Translations under genes and position numbers: made by a program
Notes under the pieces: generated by a model
Seen by the model: the letters and a program-made list of their open reading frames with translations, nothing else
What the model was told of the DNA's origin: nothing
Databases searched by the model: none
In this document: in pieces, positions 3,632 to 11,320 of the stretch
How positions within the stretch are numbered: the stretch's first letter is position 1
How the letters are laid out: every line of letters begins with the position of its first letter
DNA from: Myxococcaceae bacterium
Lineage (GTDB): Bacteria; Myxococcota; Myxococcia; Myxococcales; Myxococcaceae
Assembly (NCBI GenBank): GCA_016926755.1
Contig: JAFGNZ010000010.1
Location: 1 to 64,000 of the forward strand
Direction of reading: 5' to 3'
Length of the DNA: 64,000 bases

Positions 3632-3835
3632 TCAACCGACGACGCGGACGTTCTCTGCCTGGAGCCCCTTCGGGCCGCGCTTCACGTCGAACTCCACGCG
3701 CTGCCCCTCGGCGAGCGTGCGGAACCCATCCGACTGGATGGCAGTGTGGTGGCAGAACACATCCTCCCCACCCTCCTGCGCGATGAAACCGAACCCCTTG
3801 GCATCATTGAACCACTTCACAGTACCAGTTGCCAT
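3632..3835 (-). CDS. cspA: Cold-shock domain protein (CspA family)
   Basis: 67 residues, the standard single-domain length. RNP1 is KGFGFIAQ (about 13-20) and RNP2 is DVFCHHTAI (about 29-37); the N-terminus [11 protein letters not shown] is typical. It binds single-stranded RNA and DNA, acting as an RNA chaperone and antiterminator in the cytoplasm. ATG at 3835 is set by family alignment; the open frame continues upstream only as read-through of the leader. Its leader contains a stable hairpin (3902-3931), and a U-tract terminator follows the gene. Whether it is cold-induced or constitutive cannot be seen. Confidence 0.95.
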
Positions 3836-3901
3836 TGCTGTTCTTCTTTCTGCTGAGTAGAGGCCAACCTCACCAGGCCGCCCGTGGTTGGAGCGAACAT
3901 C

Positions 3902-3931: not shown

Positions 3932-4110
3932 ATCGCAAATGTAACCCCTCGTGTGGGATCCCCATTCCTCTCTCCAGGGTAGGGGCCGAGCAGGCACTTC
4001 ACACTTCTTCACGCGCACCCAGGCACGCCCTTCACACCCGCTCTCTACCTTCTGCTCCACACAACGAGAACCCGGGCGCTCGGTCGCCCGGCCCCTCAAG
4101 GAGCAGGCAC

Positions 4111-4590
4111 ATGTTGGGATTCTTCGTGGGTACCGCTTGTCTGGCTGGCCTCATCTACACGCTGCGGGGAGGCCGCCGCTGGCACCATCACGGCCGCGGC
4201 GGGCGCTGGAGCTGGCGCGGGAGGATGCGCTGGCTCTTCGAGCGGCTGGACACCTCGCCTGGCCAGGAGAAGGTCTTCGTCAAGGCCGCGGACGAGCTGA
4301 CCGAGGCCTTCGAGAAGCTGCGCGACGAGCTCGGCGCCACCCGCACCGCCATCGCCCAGGCGCTGCGCGGTGAACAGCTCGACGCGGCCTCCCTGCGCGA
4401 GCTGCACGCGAAGCATGACGCGCTCATCGCCAACCTGCGCGAGGCGCTGCGCACCTCGCTGGCGCAGCTCCACGAGGCGATGGACCCGCGCCAGCGCCGG
4501 GAGCTGGCGGATCTCATCGAGCACGGCTGGGGCCACGGCTACCGCGGCCATGGGGGCTGCGGCTGGCGCGGCGGCTACCGGCACTGCTGA
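4111..4590 (+). CDS. CpxP/CnrX-like periplasmic sensor or chaperone with Gly/His tail
   Basis: 159 residues. Residues 1-17 form a hydrophobic anchor ([17 protein letters not shown]). A basic His/Arg/Gly stretch (20-38, [16 protein letters not shown]) follows, then a helical hairpin of about 95 residues ending in [17 protein letters not shown], the pattern of the CpxP/Spy/CnrX/ZraP group. The tail (about 142-159) is rich in Gly and His and ends YRHC. AAGGAG lies eight bases before ATG 4111. Members bind metals or unfolded proteins outside the inner membrane and restrain a sensor kinase. It heads a tight + strand group with a small membrane protein, a response regulator and a sensor kinase, which fits that role; the ligand is unknown. 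Confidence 0.75.
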
Positions 4591-4635
4591 ACGACTGAAG
4601 GCCCCTGCCTGACTGAACGGAAAGGAACCACCGCC

Positions 4636-4821
4636 ATGCGTCGTCGCATCCTCGTCGTCCTGCTCGCCCTGGGTACCGTCGGAGGCTATGCCTCCGGGAT
4701 CGCCAGCCTCCGCTACCGCTCGCACTGCCGCCGGGCCTGGACGGAGGCGCGCACGTCCCAGGCGTGCCCGCCCTGCGCCAGCACCACGGCCCAGGCCCCC
4801 ACTCCCTCCAGCCCGCGCTAG
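4636..4821 (+). CDS. Small membrane or secreted protein, unknown
   Basis: 61 residues. Residues 5-22 (ILVVLLALGTVGGYASGI) form one hydrophobic segment after MRRR, followed by a short Arg- and Cys-containing tail with TSQACPPCAS and a Pro-rich end. AAAGGAA sits eight bases before the ATG. It lies between the CpxP-like gene and the response regulator, 45 bases after the former and 14 before the latter, so it belongs to the same operon. It may be an accessory of the sensing system; it is too short for a family call. Confidence 0.5.
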   Translation: MRRRILVVLLALGTVGGYASGIASLRYRSHCRRAWTEARTSQACPPCASTTAQAPTPSSPR

Positions 4822-4835
4822 AGTCCGGGTCTCCC

Positions 4836-5519
4836 ATGCCCACCCGCGTCCTCCTCATCGACGACGACACCCGGATGTACGAGCTGCTCGCGCAGTACCT
4901 GGGGCAGAACGGCATCACGGTGGCCCACGCGCCGGATGGGGGGCGCGGGCTGGCCGCGCTGGAGGCCAACGCCTACGACGCGGTGCTGCTCGACGTGATG
5001 ATGCCGGGCATGGACGGCCTGGAGGTGTGCAAGCGCATCCGCGCCCGGAGCGGCCAGATCCCCATCCTCATGCTCACCGCCCGAGGCGACGAGACGGACC
5101 GGGTGGTGGGCCTGGAGCTGGGCGCGGATGACTACCTGGCCAAGCCCTTCAGCCCGCGCGAGCTGCTGGCGCGGCTGCGGGCCGTCCTCCGGCGCGCGCA
5201 GCCCACCGCGGTGGCCGATCGGCTGGAGTCCAGCGGCGTCTCCATCGACGTGGCCGGGCGCGAGGTGAAGGTGAATGGCCGGGCGGTGGAGCTCACCGGC
5301 CTCGAGTTCGATCTGCTCGTGGCGCTGATGCGGCGCGCGGGCCGCGTCATCCCCCGGGATGCCCTGCTGGGCGAGGCCGGCCGCAGCGACACCGTGGTGG
5401 GCGAGCGCACCGTGGACGTCCACATCTCCCACCTGCGGCAGAAGCTCGGTGATGAGGGAGGACGCCTCATCAAGACGGTGCGCGGCGTGGGCTACGTCTT
5501 CTCCAAAGAGGGCGTGTGA
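4836..5519 (+). CDS. OmpR/PhoB-family response regulator (CpxR-like)
   Basis: 227 residues. The receiver domain (1-118) has the acidic pair in LLIDDDTRM, phospho-acceptor Asp near 51 in AVLLDVMMPGMDG, Thr in MLTARG and Lys in LAKPFSPRE. The winged-helix DNA-binding domain (about 130-227) shows LTGLEFDLLVALMRRAG and VGERTVDVHISHLRQKLG, ending VRGVGYVF. ATG 4836 begins the receiver fold directly; an upstream in-frame ATG at 4764 lies inside the previous gene. Its stop overlaps the kinase ATG (TGATG), so the two are co-translated. By analogy with CpxR it should activate envelope or metal stress genes, probably including this operon. Confidence 0.94.
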   Translation: MPTRVLLIDDDTRMYELLAQYLGQNGITVAHAPDGGRGLAALEANAYDAVLLDVMMPGMDGLEVCKRIRARSGQIPILMLTARGDETDRVVGLELGADDYLAKPFSPRELLARLRAVLRRAQPTAVADRLESSGVSIDVAGREVKVNGRAVELTGLEFDLLVALMRRAGRVIPRDALLGEAGRSDTVVGERTVDVHISHLRQKLGDEGGRLIKTVRGVGYVFSKEGV

Positions 5520-6925
5520 TGCACGAGCCTCACGGCCACGGGCCTCACGGCCACGAGCCCCACTCCCACTGGCCCCCGGGCCACGGCCCCCATGCCTGGC
5601 GCCATGGCCACGGGCCTCATGGGCGCTGGCGCATGACGCGCCTGGGCCGCTACATCCGCGAGCACCTGCGCCGGAGGCTCTTCGTCTGGTTCGGGCTCTC
5701 CATCCTCGTCACCGGCTTGCTGGTGGCCACGGTGATGAACCTGGTGGGCGGCTCCACCTGGCGGCAGGAGATGGAGAAGGCCCGCACCTTCGCCAGCAAC
5801 CGCTTCGCCGAGGTGTGGGACATGCCCGAGCGGCGAGCGGCCCTCGTCCAGGGGATCTCCCGCGACCTGAACGTGGACGTGGAGCTCCGGGATGCCTCCG
5901 GGACGCTGCTGACACGGGCGGGCAAGGCCTGTGAGAAGCCGGACCTCACCATCCCGGTGGCGCGCAACGGCACCCGGCTGGGCTCGGCCCAGGCCTGCTA
6001 CTGGCACTTCCGCCCCCGCAACCCCTGGCGCAGCCTCCTGCCCCTGCTGCTCTCCGGGGCCATGCTGTGGATGATCTCGGGCGCCATCGCCCGGCGGCTG
6101 ACCCGGCCCATGGAGGAGCTGGTCCGCGCCGCCAGCGCGCTGGGCTCGGGGAAGTTGGAGACCCGCGCCAGGCTGGGCCGGGACGCCACGGGAGAGATGG
6201 GCGTGCTCGCCGCGTCCTTCAACGACATGGCCGCGCGCATCGAGCGCCAGGTGGCGGACCAGCGCGAGCTGCTCGCCGCCGTGTCCCATGAGCTGCGCAC
6301 CCCGCTGGCGCGCATGCGCGTGCTCACGGAGATCCTCCGTGGCGGCGGCGGGGATCCGAAGACGCTGGATCAGGTGGATCGCGAGGTGGTGGAGCTGGAC
6401 GCGCTGGTGGGCGAGCTGCTCGCCAGCTCCCGGCTGGACTTCGGCCAGGTGACCCCTCGCGCCCTCGATGCCAGGGAGCTGGCGGCCCGAGCGCTGGAGC
6501 GCAGCGGCCTGCCGGCCGAGCTGCTGTCGGTGGAGCTCTCTGACACCGCCCTGGTGGGCGACACGACGCTCCTGGCCCGCGCGCTCGCCAACCTCCTGGA
6601 GAACGCGCGGAGGCACGGCCAGGGCGCGGAGGCGCTGCGGATCATCGAGCGCGGCGGCAGCCTGGCCTTCTGCGTGGATGACCGCGGCCCGGGCCTGCTG
6701 CCCGGCGAGGAGACGCGCATCTTCGAGCCCTTCTACCGCAAGGACCGGGGCGGAGAGGCGCGTGAGGCGGGCTCGCTCGGCCTGGGGCTGGCGCTGGTGC
6801 AGCGGATTGCCCGGGCGCACGGCGGCGAGGCCTTCGCGGAGAACCGTCCCGGAGGCGGAGCCCGCGTGGGCTTCAGCGTCCAGCGGGCAGGGCCGCCCGC
6901 CGCGGGCGGCCTCCCTCGAGCGTGA
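5519..6925 (+). CDS. Sensor histidine kinase with a His-rich cytoplasmic N-terminus
   Basis: 468 residues. Residues 1-38 are unusual: 12 of the first 34 are His, in repeats such as HGHGPHGHEPHSH. Then come TM1 (about 54-77), a periplasmic domain of about 90 residues containing two Cys, TM2 (about 168-190), HAMP (190-245), the H-box VSHELRTPLARM near 255, N-box NLLENARRHG, G1 DDRGPGLL, F-box FEPFYRKD and G2 GLGLALVQRIARAHGG. All catalytic boxes are intact. Overall it resembles CpxA/RstB kinases. The His-rich tail would sit in the cytoplasm before TM1 and could bind Ni, Zn, Co or Cu; this is inference from composition. The start codon overlaps the response regulator stop. Confidence 0.93.
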   Translation: MHEPHGHGPHGHEPHSHWPPGHGPHAWRHGHGPHGRWRMTRLGRYIREHLRRRLFVWFGLSILVTGLLVATVMNLVGGSTWRQEMEKARTFASNRFAEVWDMPERRAALVQGISRDLNVDVELRDASGTLLTRAGKACEKPDLTIPVARNGTRLGSAQACYWHFRPRNPWRSLLPLLLSGAMLWMISGAIARRLTRPMEELVRAASALGSGKLETRARLGRDATGEMGVLAASFNDMAARIERQVADQRELLAAVSHELRTPLARMRVLTEILRGGGGDPKTLDQVDREVVELDALVGELLASSRLDFGQVTPRALDARELAARALERSGLPAELLSVELSDTALVGDTTLLARALANLLENARRHGQGAEALRIIERGGSLAFCVDDRGPGLLPGEETRIFEPFYRKDRGGEAREAGSLGLGLALVQRIARAHGGEAFAENRPGGGARVGFSVQRAGPPAAGGLPRA

Positions 6926-6960: not shown

Positions 6961-7776
6961 CTAGCCCTTGTCCGTGGCGGCGAACTCGAACGAGGCCTCG
7001 GCGGTCTCGCCGTCCTTCACGGTGACTTCGGCCGTCTTCGTCCCGAGCGTCTCGTGCCACGCCTCGAGCGTGTACGTGCCGGCCGGCAGGCCCGTGATGG
7101 AGAAGGTGCCCTCCTCGCCCGTGGTGGAGAAGTACGGGTGCGGGCTCACGGCGATGAAGGCCCTCATCCACGGGTGCACGTCACACTTGAGCTGGAGCAG
7201 CTCGGTGTCCGCGGGCACGGGCTTCGTCACCGGCGGCATCGAGGGCGGCTGGGCCAGGTTGAACACGGGCCGGGTGCCCGCCACGGCGCGCACGTTGTGC
7301 AGCGTCCCGTCGCTGTTCTTCACCTGGATGGCCTGGCCGGACTGGGCGCCCACCACCCGAGGCAGATAGGTGCACTTCAGCTGGTCGATCACCACCGGCG
7401 CGCTGGAGGCCGCGGGAGCGCCGGCCACCGCGCCCTTCACGCGCACCAGCACGTTCTGCAGCTTGCCCTCCTTCACCAGCACCGCCTGCTCCTTGAGCGC
7501 CATGCCCTCGCAGGCCGGATCGGCGCTCGGGGCGATGTCGGCCATGGCGGGGGCCGCGCCGTTGAACTTCACCACACCGCGGATGGTGCTCTTCCCAGCG
7601 GGGGCCGGCGGGGTCGGCGCCGCGGCGGCGGGCTCGGGGGTTGCCGGCCTGGCCGGCTCGGCGGCCGCGGTGCTCGGCGAGGTGGGAGCCGCTGGCGGCG
7701 CCTCCTTGCTACAGGCCGGCAGGATCGCCAGTCCCGCCGTTCCGAACAGGGCGAGGCCGAACGTGCGCAGCTTCAT
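6961..7776 (-). CDS. Lipoprotein with cupredoxin-like copper motif and carboxypeptidase regulatory-like fold
   Basis: 271 residues. The lipobox is LAILPAC (Cys near 22). A Pro/Ala-rich linker (about 25-62) follows, then a beta-rich region. NSDGTLHNVRA and, later, KCDVHPWMRAF (about residues 195-206) give the His...Cys-x2-His-x2-Met order of a type 1 copper site. The C-terminal part (FSITGLPAGTYTLEAWHE) looks like a carboxypeptidase regulatory-like or transthyretin-like fold. Such proteins are anchored in the envelope and may carry electrons. It is followed 71 bases upstream on the same strand by ctaB, which suggests a link to respiration. Copper binding is inferred from residue order only. 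Confidence 0.72.
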   Translation of the reverse strand: MKLRTFGLALFGTAGLAILPACSKEAPPAAPTSPSTAAAEPARPATPEPAAAAPTPPAPAGKSTIRGVVKFNGAAPAMADIAPSADPACEGMALKEQAVLVKEGKLQNVLVRVKGAVAGAPAASSAPVVIDQLKCTYLPRVVGAQSGQAIQVKNSDGTLHNVRAVAGTRPVFNLAQPPSMPPVTKPVPADTELLQLKCDVHPWMRAFIAVSPHPYFSTTGEEGTFSITGLPAGTYTLEAWHETLGTKTAEVTVKDGETAEASFEFAATDKG

Positions 7777-7847
7777 GGGAGTTCTCCTTGTCAAAACCAG
7801 GGGTGTCAGCACGAAGGGACGGCGCGCGGGCCTCGACGGACGGACGG

Positions 7848-8732
7848 CTAGCCGTTGGCGCTGCTGTCGAGCATGAGCGCGATGAAGAGGCCCGTGAGGT
7901 ACAGCAGCGAGAAGAAGAACGTCCGCCGGGCCCAGGGTTTTCCCAGCTGCCGGAAGAAACCCACCGCCCCCAGCCCCAGGAAGGAGAGCCCGAGCACCAC
8001 CGCCACGGCCAGGTACCACCCTCCGGCGATGCGCAGCTGGTACGGCAGCAGCGTCATCGGCACCAGCGCCACCAGATAGAGGACGAGCTGCGCCCGGCTG
8101 GACTCGTCCCCGCGCTCGAGCGGCACGGACTTGAGGCCCGCCGCCGCGTACTCCTCCTTGCGGAACAGGGCGATGGCCAGGAAGTGGGGGATCTGCCAGA
8201 GGAAGAGAATGGAGAAGAGGACGAAGCCGCCGGTGTCCACCTGCCCCGTGACGGCCGTCCACCCCATCAGCGGCGGGAGCGCCCCAGGCACCGCGCCCAC
8301 CAGCATGGCCGCCGAGGTGCGGGACTTGAGGGGCGTGTAGACGAGCACGTAGCTGAGGAAGGCCAGCAGGCCCAGGCCGGCGGTGAGCAGGTTGGCGCCC
8401 AGCGCCAGGGCCGGCAGCGACACGGCCGCCAGGGACAGGCCGAACCACAGCGCCACGCCCGGCTCCATGCGCCCGGAGGGCAGCGGCCGGTTCTGGGTGC
8501 GCGCCATGAAGCGGTCGCTCTGCCGCTCGATGAAGCAGTTGAGGGCGTTGGCCGCGCCCACGGTGCCGGCGGTGGCCAGCAGCGTCACCAGCAGCCGAGG
8601 CCCGGACAGCTGTCCGGGCGCCAGCCACACGCCGCCCGCGGTGGTGGCGAGCACCAGGCTCGAGAGGCGCGGCTTGGTGAGGGACAGCAGATCAGACGCG
8701 GTGGTCGACAGGGACACGGCACGCGCGCTCAC
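7848..8732 (-). CDS. ctaB: Protoheme IX farnesyltransferase (heme O synthase)
   Basis: 294 residues, the normal length. A UbiA-type integral membrane prenyltransferase: LLSLTKPRLSSLVLATTAG near the start, the first Asp-rich-type motif NCFIERQSDRFMARTQNR (about 80-97), YTPLKSRTS, GAVPGALPPLMGW, and about eight hydrophobic segments. It adds farnesyl to heme b to make heme O for terminal oxidases. GTG 8732 has GGAG five bases upstream, and the protein then starts at the family's usual place; the longer open frame upstream is not family-like. No other oxidase gene is in view. The downstream cupredoxin-like lipoprotein gene is probably co-transcribed. Confidence 0.95.
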   Translation of the reverse strand: MSARAVSLSTTASDLLSLTKPRLSSLVLATTAGGVWLAPGQLSGPRLLVTLLATAGTVGAANALNCFIERQSDRFMARTQNRPLPSGRMEPGVALWFGLSLAAVSLPALALGANLLTAGLGLLAFLSYVLVYTPLKSRTSAAMLVGAVPGALPPLMGWTAVTGQVDTGGFVLFSILFLWQIPHFLAIALFRKEEYAAAGLKSVPLERGDESSRAQLVLYLVALVPMTLLPYQLRIAGGWYLAVAVVLGLSFLGLGAVGFFRQLGKPWARRTFFFSLLYLTGLFIALMLDSSANG

Positions 8733-8887
8733 GCAAACTCCGGGGTGGGGCTCGACAGGCTTGCTGCCGGCGCGGTGGAGGTCAGGTGGGAGAACCGCCC
8801 CTACCTGGGCGATCCCTCCCATACAGCCATCCCGGCCGGACGGCAAGCCGCCGCTATCAGGCCCGCTTGTCGAAGACAATGGGCGCA

Positions 8888-11320
8888 CTACCCTCCGGAG
8901 GCCAGGCGCTGCAGCTCCGGAGCGTGCTCACCCTTCGGCTCGAGCTTGAGGTACTCCTGGGCGAGCATGCGGACCTTGTCTGCCTGCTTGCGATCCTTGC
9001 TGAGCATCGTGGCGTAGAAGTAGTACGCCGGGCCGTGGCTGCCGTTGGCCTGGATGGCGCGCTGGAAGGCGTCCTCGGCCTTCGCCATGTCTCCCCGGGA
9101 CAGGTACACGCGGCCCAGCTCCGTCAGGGCGAGGGCGGAGCGATCCGCCTGGCCGATGAACTCCTCCACCGCCTTCTCGAGCTGCTGCTGGGCCTTCTCG
9201 AAGTCCGAGCGCTCCCGGTAGATGGCGCCCATGGCCAGCCGCGCCTCGGGGTTCTTCGCCTTCGGCTCCTTCACCGCGCGCTGGTACTGCGCCAGCGCCT
9301 CGTCGAGCTTGCCCTGGCGGCGGAGGGCGTTGCCGAGCATCACCACCAGCTTGGGGCTCTCGCCCATCGTCTTGAGGGCGGTGTTGAGCGCCTCGGCGGC
9401 CTCCTTCTCGCCGCCCTGCTTGTTCATGAGCGCCTTGGCCAGCTCCACGTGGAACTGGGCGCGGGAGGCGTCCATCTTGATGGCCTCGCGGATGGAGGCG
9501 ACCGCGGCGTCGGTCTGGCCTTCCGCCAGTAACCGGCGGCCCTTGATGAGCAGCAGCTCCGGGTTGGACTTGTCCAGCAGGAAGCCGTCCTGCTCGGCCT
9601 TGCTCATCTGCGCGCGCGCCTTCTCCTTGTCCACGGGGACACCCGTGGCCTCCGAGAGCTTGGTCTGCACCTCCGGCTTGAGGTCCGTCATGGCCGCGGA
9701 CACGCGGCTGATCAGCAGCGAGCGCGCCAGTTGCGCGGTGGCGAGCTGCCTCGGCGAGGGCGGCGGATCCACCTCCAGCAGCTTCTTGAGCATCTTCGCG
9801 GCCAGCTCGTAGAACTCCAGGCTCGGCGAGTCCTGATCCATCATCAGCAGCGACTTGCCCAGCAGCGCCTCCGGGTGGTCCTTCTCGTAGCGCAGCGCAT
9901 TGTCGTACTGCGTCCACGCCGTGTTGTCCTGGCCGAGCCGGCGGTAGACCGCGCCCAGGCTGGCGTAGATGCGCGGATCGGTCTGCGCCAGTTGCTGCGC
10001 CTTGTCCAGGCTGTCGCGCGCGCGCTCCAGATCGCCCGCGTTCATCAGCGCCAGGCCCAGCGTGAGGTTCAGCAGGGAGCTGGCCTTGCCCTGCGCCTCG
10101 AGGTCCTTTACGCGCTTCTCGAACTCGCCCAGCGCCTCCTTGCCCTTGCCGCCGTACGTCTTGACGAGGGCCTCGGCGGCGTACAGGTGCGAGCTCTCCT
10201 CGTCACCGCTCCGGGCCGCCTCCTGGGCCTCCTTCAGGTGCTCCTCGGCCTTGCGACGCGCGTCGTCACCGCCGCCGTGCTCGCCCCAGCGGATGGCCCA
10301 GGCATAGGCCAGGTAGCCGTGCGCGATGACGGAGTCCGGCTTCACCTCGAGCGCCTTGTCGGCCGCCTCGCACGCCTTCTTGTAGGAGTCGTACGAGTCG
10401 TGCTTGAGCTGCTCGGTGGCGACGTCGATGTGCTTCTTGAACTCGCGGTTGCGCTCCCGCGTCCAGCTCGAGAACCCGTAGAAGCCGCCGATGCCGAGGA
10501 TGATCGCCACGACGAGGCCGAGCGTGACGTACATGCTGTGGATGCCCTGCGCCTTCGCGGGGCGCTTCGGGCTGATCTCGTCGTCCTCGTCCTCGTCCAC
10601 CTCCTCCACGACGACGGGGCGGCGGGGCACGGGGCGGGGCTGAGCCGCCACGCCGGGCTGAGTGCCGGTGGGGATCGGGCGGGCTTGAACTCCCGGATTG
10701 GAGAGGCGCCCGGCCTGAACTCCCGGATTGGAGAGGCGCCCGGGCGGCGCGGCCGTCGGCTGGGCGACGGGCGCCAGCACCGGGGGCGCGGCCTGGGGCG
10801 CACCCGCCGCGGGCGCCTGCTGCACGGGCGCGGCGGTGGGCTGCGGGGCCGCCTGCACGGGGACAGGCGCTGGCGGCGGGGCCGCGGGCTTGGGCGGCTC
10901 CACCTTGTACTGCTGAAGCAGGGCGAGCGTCTCCGCGTCGTTCGGATCCGCCTCCCAGGCCTTCAGGAGGTTGGCCTTGCCGGGCTCGGCCTCCCCGGTC
11001 TTGAGCTGCAGCATGCCCACCATGCGCAGCGCCTGCTTGTCCGCGGGCTGGACCTGGAGGGCGCCGAGCGCCTCCTCGAGGGCCTTCTTGTCCTTGCCTT
11101 GCTGCAGGTACACCCGCGCGAGCAGGAGCCGGGGGTCGGCCGCGTTCGGGTGCGCCTTGACACCCTTCTTGCAGACGACCATCGCCTCCATGAAGCGGCC
11201 CATGCCCAGGTAGGCCTCGGCGAGCGGCTTGTATGCTTCAGATGACGGGTCGGCGGCGAACGCGTGCTCCAGCTTCGCGAGCTCGGCCGGGCTCAACGTC
11301 TTGATGGGAGAGGTAGACAT
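8888..11320 (-). CDS. Large membrane-anchored TPR protein
   Basis: 810 residues. TPR-like helices occupy 1-140 (for example [18 protein letters not shown]), a Pro/Ala/Gln-rich linker runs to about 250 and contains an exact tandem repeat of [10 protein letters not shown] near 194-213, one TM segment lies at about 261-283 ([20 protein letters not shown]), and the remaining 520 residues are a long array of TPR units (for example [20 protein letters not shown]). One TPR block is therefore cytoplasmic and one likely periplasmic, a layout suited to joining complexes across the inner membrane. No enzyme domain is seen. It has its own sigma70-like promoter at 11351-11379. It could belong to motility, secretion or division machinery; the partner is unknown. 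Confidence 0.85.
10684..10743. repeat. Tandem 30-bp repeat (two copies) inside the TPR gene
   Basis: Two adjacent 30-base units (10684-10713 and 10714-10743) differ at a single base and encode [10 protein letters not shown] twice, in frame. The unit is a multiple of three, so copy number can change without breaking the gene. Confidence 0.85.

Follow-up and report, generated by a model that had tools for sequence, protein, structure and literature searches.

In the Cpx system of Escherichia coli (CpxA-CpxR-CpxP), a two-TM HAMP/HisKA kinase and an OmpR-family regulator are operon-linked to an LTXXQ-fold partner, a spaced direct-repeat box lies upstream, and a second LTXXQ chaperone of the regulon, Spy, stands behind the same box. 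CpxP inhibits the kinase until misfolded protein releases it. CnrX of Cupriavidus metallidurans (CnrYXH), a membrane-anchored periplasmic metal sensor with a helical fold, works with an anti-sigma factor and the ECF sigma factor CnrH. A further LTXXQ/Metal_resist periplasmic protein tied to a two-component system is found in ZraP-ZraSR, where ZraR is an NtrC-type sigma54 regulator. Histidines also take part in metal sensing by the envelope-sensing copper kinases CusS and CorS (PMC10100754, PMC3707914), in which the functional residues sit in the periplasmic part (PMC10100754).

The Cpx features listed above recur in a four-gene operon of a Myxococcaceae bacterium, located within the 64,000-nucleotide stretch of DNA analysed here (the window), and CpxA is the best match of its kinase. 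The operon differs from E. coli Cpx in that kinase and regulator score below the CpxA and CpxR equivalog cut-offs, the box reads GTGAA instead of GTAAA, and the partner is membrane-anchored, His/Cys-rich and closer to CnrX, whereas CpxP is soluble. An extra small membrane protein, a long disordered kinase leader and a different gene order are present only here. Compared to CnrYXH, the partner has a CnrX-like predicted fold, supported by a weak E-value, and is coupled to a two-component system; the operon encodes neither an anti-sigma factor CnrY nor an ECF sigma factor CnrH, and no efflux genes stand behind the box in our sample. ZraP (3lay) and ZraS (9jfj) both occur among the fold matches, but the regulator is of the OmpR/PhoB type (Response_reg and Trans_reg_C) and not, as in ZraPSR, an NtrC-type activator of sigma54, while the kinase is not orthologous to CusS or CorS and carries its histidines in a cytoplasmic leader. 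Because the architecture is Cpx-like, LTXXQ partner included, but the scores stay below the cut-offs and the box sequence deviates, we file the system as a variant of Cpx. We searched the open-access literature for a Myxococcus Cpx system and found nothing relevant.

Anatomy and distribution of the operon

Gene finding by translation and Pfam yielded the order partner, small membrane protein, response regulator and kinase. Taken together, we consider it likely that the four genes form a single operon of a Cpx-like envelope-stress two-component system that is conserved across the Myxococcota. The kinase's sensor half has matches in 106 of the 145 genomes of the order, nearly always in single copy; among named relatives, orthologues are found in Myxococcus, Corallococcus, Archangium, Pyxidicoccus and Sorangium. 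Where a locus has sufficient flank, the partner gene nearly always lies upstream of the kinase (Myxococcaceae, Sorangium and Polyangia MAGs), and sequence comparison shows the operon to be orthologous throughout the phylum.

The first gene (4111-4590, forward strand) encodes a membrane-anchored periplasmic partner of 159 aa from the Metal_resist/LTXXQ family, with a CnrX/Spy/CpxP-like fold according to Pfam, an AF2 model and alignment. Pfam assigned Metal_resist (PF13801) with an E-value of 1.3e-10, and this domain was present in 52/55 homologues, as was LTXXQ (PF07813) in 45/55. Searching PDB sequences with a profile of the partner returned marginal matches only (Spy, Spheroplast protein Y; E 0.083), so a fold search was used. 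The top folds for the AF2 model (mean pLDDT 73) include CnrX (3epv), Spy, CpxP (3itf) and ZraP (3lay), with weak E-values; the top Foldseek match was 3epv_A (CnrX; prob 0.99, TMt 0.63, and again a weak E of 0.19). Translation confirmed the HHH stretch and the Gly/His tail that the original prediction had noticed in this gene, the former within a His-rich linker after the N-terminal TM helix and the latter as a C-terminal Gly/His/Cys tail of 19 residues. His121 is invariant in the alignment of homologues.

The second gene (4636-4821, forward strand), absent from the operon as originally described, encodes by translation a small membrane protein of 61 aa with a single TM helix (MRRRILVVLLALGTVGGYASG... 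/ MRRRLLIVLLALGTVGGYASGFAS...). A recognisable counterpart occupies this position in about 96 of 104 operons, and six operons leave no room for the gene. Its juxtamembrane part is Cys/His-rich in many relatives (RHRHHLRHCHH), and an extended form of 100-175 aa occurs in Citreicoccus and some further lineages.

An OmpR/PhoB-family response regulator of 227 aa (Response_reg, 2.7e-33; Trans_reg_C, 2.6e-23) is encoded by the third gene (4836-5519, forward strand). All its NCBIfam matches fall below the curated cut-offs, including the best one, PhoB (218.8 bits), and CpxR (NF008199; 174.4 against a cut-off of 341). The regulator stop codon overlaps by one base with the start codon of the fourth gene (5519-6925, forward strand), a CpxA-like sensor histidine kinase of 468 aa with the Pfam domains HAMP, HisKA and HATPase_c. 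The best NCBIfam match of the kinase, CpxA (NF007007), reaches 157.9 bits and likewise remains below its cut-off of 486; the CpxA cytoplasmic domain is the dominant PDB fold match of the kinase model. Alignment and structure model place a periplasmic sensor domain at about residues 77-169 (5747-6025, forward strand), of which residues 91-160 are modelled as helices and four strands with a pLDDT above 90. Within this domain, Cys138 and Cys160 are kept in 97% of 101 sequences and without exception in a set of 37, and they may form a disulphide or a metal/redox site. The conserved sensor features are periplasmic, namely this pair and the CnrX/CpxP-fold partner, and with the two cysteines near-invariant, sensing is probably periplasmic.

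Regarding the neighbourhood, a cold-shock-type protein gene (3632-3840, reverse strand) diverges from the operon; this arrangement is common to the nearest relatives and was not seen in the aligned upstream regions of the Myxococcus and Corallococcus type. Downstream, inspection by eye of 6961-8888 (reverse strand) revealed a secreted protein rich in Pro and Ala (features carboxypeptidase-regulatory-like and plastocyanin-like) as well as a protoheme IX farnesyltransferase-like gene.

Operator and predicted regulon

Aligning the upstream regions of the operons revealed the block CTTCACACTTCTTCAC (3997-4012, forward strand), a putative response-regulator box that lies some 100 bp before the first gene and reads GTGAA-N5-GTGAA on the reverse strand; a third half-site, CTTCACACC, is located at 4030-4038. 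All operons with a kinase identity of at least 60% (54/54) carry the box with at most two mismatches, and 33/35 more distant ones, most of Sorangium included, carry it with at most four, while shuffled upstream regions, a control that ignores kinship, never fell below four mismatches. From the CpxR consensus GTAAA-(N)4-8-GTAAA (PMC5063474), the box differs by one base per half-site. Because it is placed autoregulatorily and is co-conserved with the operon, we infer that the regulator of this operon binds GTGAA-N5-GTGAA boxes.

The exact 16-bp sequence CTTCAYACTTCTTCAY occurs in 62/91 family genomes with one to three copies per genome, and the reversed control pattern showed zero occurrences in the same 91 genomes. 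The second exact site in the window's own genome (contig C275) lies 122 nt before a gene for a secreted 145-aa Metal_resist/LTXXQ protein of the Spy/CpxP-like kind (L214:4730-5167, reverse strand). Besides this genome, the sample of second sites comprised 20 loci from other genomes. A homologue of the 145-aa protein follows the site in 13/20 of them, and a secreted protein of 408-439 aa, for which the one member scanned gave no Pfam match, in 3/20 (L249, L246 and L256, from three genera). A siderophore-interacting-type FAD-binding reductase was found in a further 3/20 (L252, L261 and L264, all from one group of the Myxococcus-containing genus g19), and a DUF4440 protein in 1/20. Separately, contig C273 holds a 1-mismatch operator site near an ORF that by eye resembles a membrane metallophosphoesterase.

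These data bear on whether the system might be a dedicated heavy-metal resistance regulator of the CnrX/Czc/Cus kind rather than an envelope-stress system. The Pfam name Metal_resist, CnrX as the top fold, the His/Cys-rich segments of the partner and the invariant His121 would fit such a role, but no metal-efflux gene (RND, CDF or P-type exporter) was found among the second-site loci examined, and the sampled targets are instead Spy-like chaperones, the 408-aa secreted protein, the reductases and the DUF4440 protein. The kinase also scores only 114.5 bits against the heavy-metal sensor kinase family TIGR01386 (CzcS/SilS/CopS), whose cut-off is 292.55. We therefore regard a dedicated metal-resistance regulator as rather unlikely, and the predicted regulon would represent a Cpx-like envelope-stress set rather than one for metal efflux. 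The Cpx-like envelope-stress reading is preferred because it accounts for the CpxA-like kinase, the partner with its CnrX/CpxP/Spy fold, the spaced-repeat box and the second Spy-like chaperone. Since the partner is membrane-anchored, decorated with His and Cys and CnrX-like, metal may be the primary signal.

It can be proposed that the membrane-anchored partner monitors periplasmic misfolded protein or metal/redox stress, probably acting with the small co-encoded membrane protein, and modulates the CpxA-like kinase, whose small periplasmic domain bears the Cys pair. The kinase would then phosphorylate the OmpR-type regulator, which would bind the GTGAA-N5-GTGAA boxes, autoregulate the operon and switch on the secreted Spy/CpxP-like chaperone elsewhere together with one or two lineage-specific genes. 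For the Myxococcota, models such as Myxococcus included, this predicts an envelope-stress regulon of the Cpx kind whose operator can be tested and whose targets include a Spy-like protein.

The His-rich leader of the kinase

According to the original prediction, the kinase begins with a 38-residue segment holding 12 His and built from short repeats. Translation from ATG 5519 indeed reads MHEPHGHGPHGHEPHSHWPPGHGPHAWRHGHGPHGRWR-M39... with 12 His preceding Met39, and TRF identified a 15-bp tandem array (5522-5592) with 4.7 copies of CACGGGCCCCACGGC, encoding HGPHG units. This N-terminal cytoplasmic leader (residues 1-39; 5519-5635, forward strand) is predicted to be disordered, with a pLDDT of about 40 in the kinase model. 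Among the window's six-frame ORFs with 100 codons or more (308), no other run of 39 residues is as dense in His; this background is a poor null, as non-coding antisense frames elsewhere reach 12-13 His per 39 residues.

If translation truly began at Met39, the His-rich segment would be an annotation artefact. An ATG is found at or beside that position in many lineages, but the codon there is CTG in Corallococcus and AAG in Sorangium, neither of which provides a Met, and the SD-like sequence AAAGAGG lies about 7 nt before ATG 5519, whereas no purine-rich site precedes Met39. Furthermore, the leader has coding signatures. Across 99 non-redundant orthologues, His accounts for 13.2% in the reading frame and for 0.6% and 2.0% in the other frames, in-frame stops occur in 0/99 leaders (frame +1, 51; frame +2, 14), and codon-position GC resembles that of coding DNA; pN/pS below 1 points the same way. 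A start at Met39 is thus highly improbable. Almost all orthologous kinases begin at the regulator stop or close to it, most Myxococcaceae having an overlap of 0 or -3, although the starts of relatives were picked by proximity to that stop, which may inflate the constancy of the junction. SD-like sequences support the overlapping start in many relatives. The leader, which ranges from 7 to 197 aa across orthologues, is hence a translated extension whose start appears to be fixed at the regulator stop codon.

When compared across relatives, the tail proved neither absent nor devoid of His throughout: nearly all orthologues have a leader, and it contains at least 10% His in 71/99. Altogether, the 99 leaders hold 553 His against 325 ± 14 expected with bases shuffled within codon positions, an expectation that ignores kinship, and in a second count the leaders reach 13.5% His, with a His/Gln ratio of 5.64 compared to 0.67 in the kinase core. 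At the same time, the counts within the window's own clade are 12, 5, 8, 5, 2, 2, 1 and 0, with 0-2 His in the leaders (28-43 aa) of four same-genus relatives, and Sorangium leaders have 0-1. The pN/pS ratio is 0.39-0.74 in the leader and 0.23-0.34 in the core (five groups). These patterns suggest that sequence and length of the leader turn over rapidly by repeat expansion under weak purifying selection, with a His bias that is real but is a tendency and not an invariant. We retain the proposal of a His-rich two-component system whose partner is of the CnrX/CpxP type, while the same-genus relatives with 0-2 His speak against the tail as a conserved metal motif.

Two explanations of the leader were weighed. 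It could be near-neutral filler, with the start pinned to the regulator stop by translational coupling and the spacer growing by GC-rich repeat slippage; the constant overlap in most Myxococcaceae lineages despite the wide length range, the 15-bp repeat and the raised pN/pS would agree with this, but pN/pS is still below 1 and base composition does not explain the preference of His over Gln. Filler is a possibility that we take seriously without favouring it. Conversely, the leader could act in the cytoplasm to sense or buffer metal (Ni, Co, Zn or Cu), altering kinase activity and complementing the periplasmic partner, so that metal would be read on both sides of the membrane as first suggested. 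The strong frame-specific His bias recurs in leaders of little sequence similarity, Cys is added in some of them, and both the partner and the small protein have His/Cys clusters beside their TM helices. Against this, the kinase is still orthologous where His is nearly lost, and the operator loci examined are without a metal-efflux gene. His content also shows no covariation between leader and partner (Spearman -0.04, p 0.71, n=78; kinship ignored). As His is lost in close relatives, an essential metal sensor is disfavoured, and two-sided metal sensing is possible but unlikely.

Our best reading is that the leader is a variable accessory rather than a conserved sensor. Since the compositional His bias argues for function, it presumably does something, perhaps binding metal or adjusting stability or clustering. 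More specifically, convergent evolution could have maintained a disordered, His-biased segment in the cytoplasm through which transition-metal binding or metal-dependent self-association tunes the Cpx-like kinase. We hold this version to be doubtful; if true, the envelope-stress system would gain a second, cytosolic metal input. In the open-access literature, nothing relevant came up on sensor kinases that carry a His-rich cytoplasmic leader. The leader documents a case of compositional rather than sequence constraint on a kinase segment, and the tails of the relatives vary naturally from rich to poor in His, which offers a way of asking whether low-complexity His tails do anything. Finally, the leaders of 130-197 aa in some members of genus g19 (L149, L155, L030 and L147) are rich in Glu, Asp, Arg, Trp and Gly rather than His and contain internal repeats.
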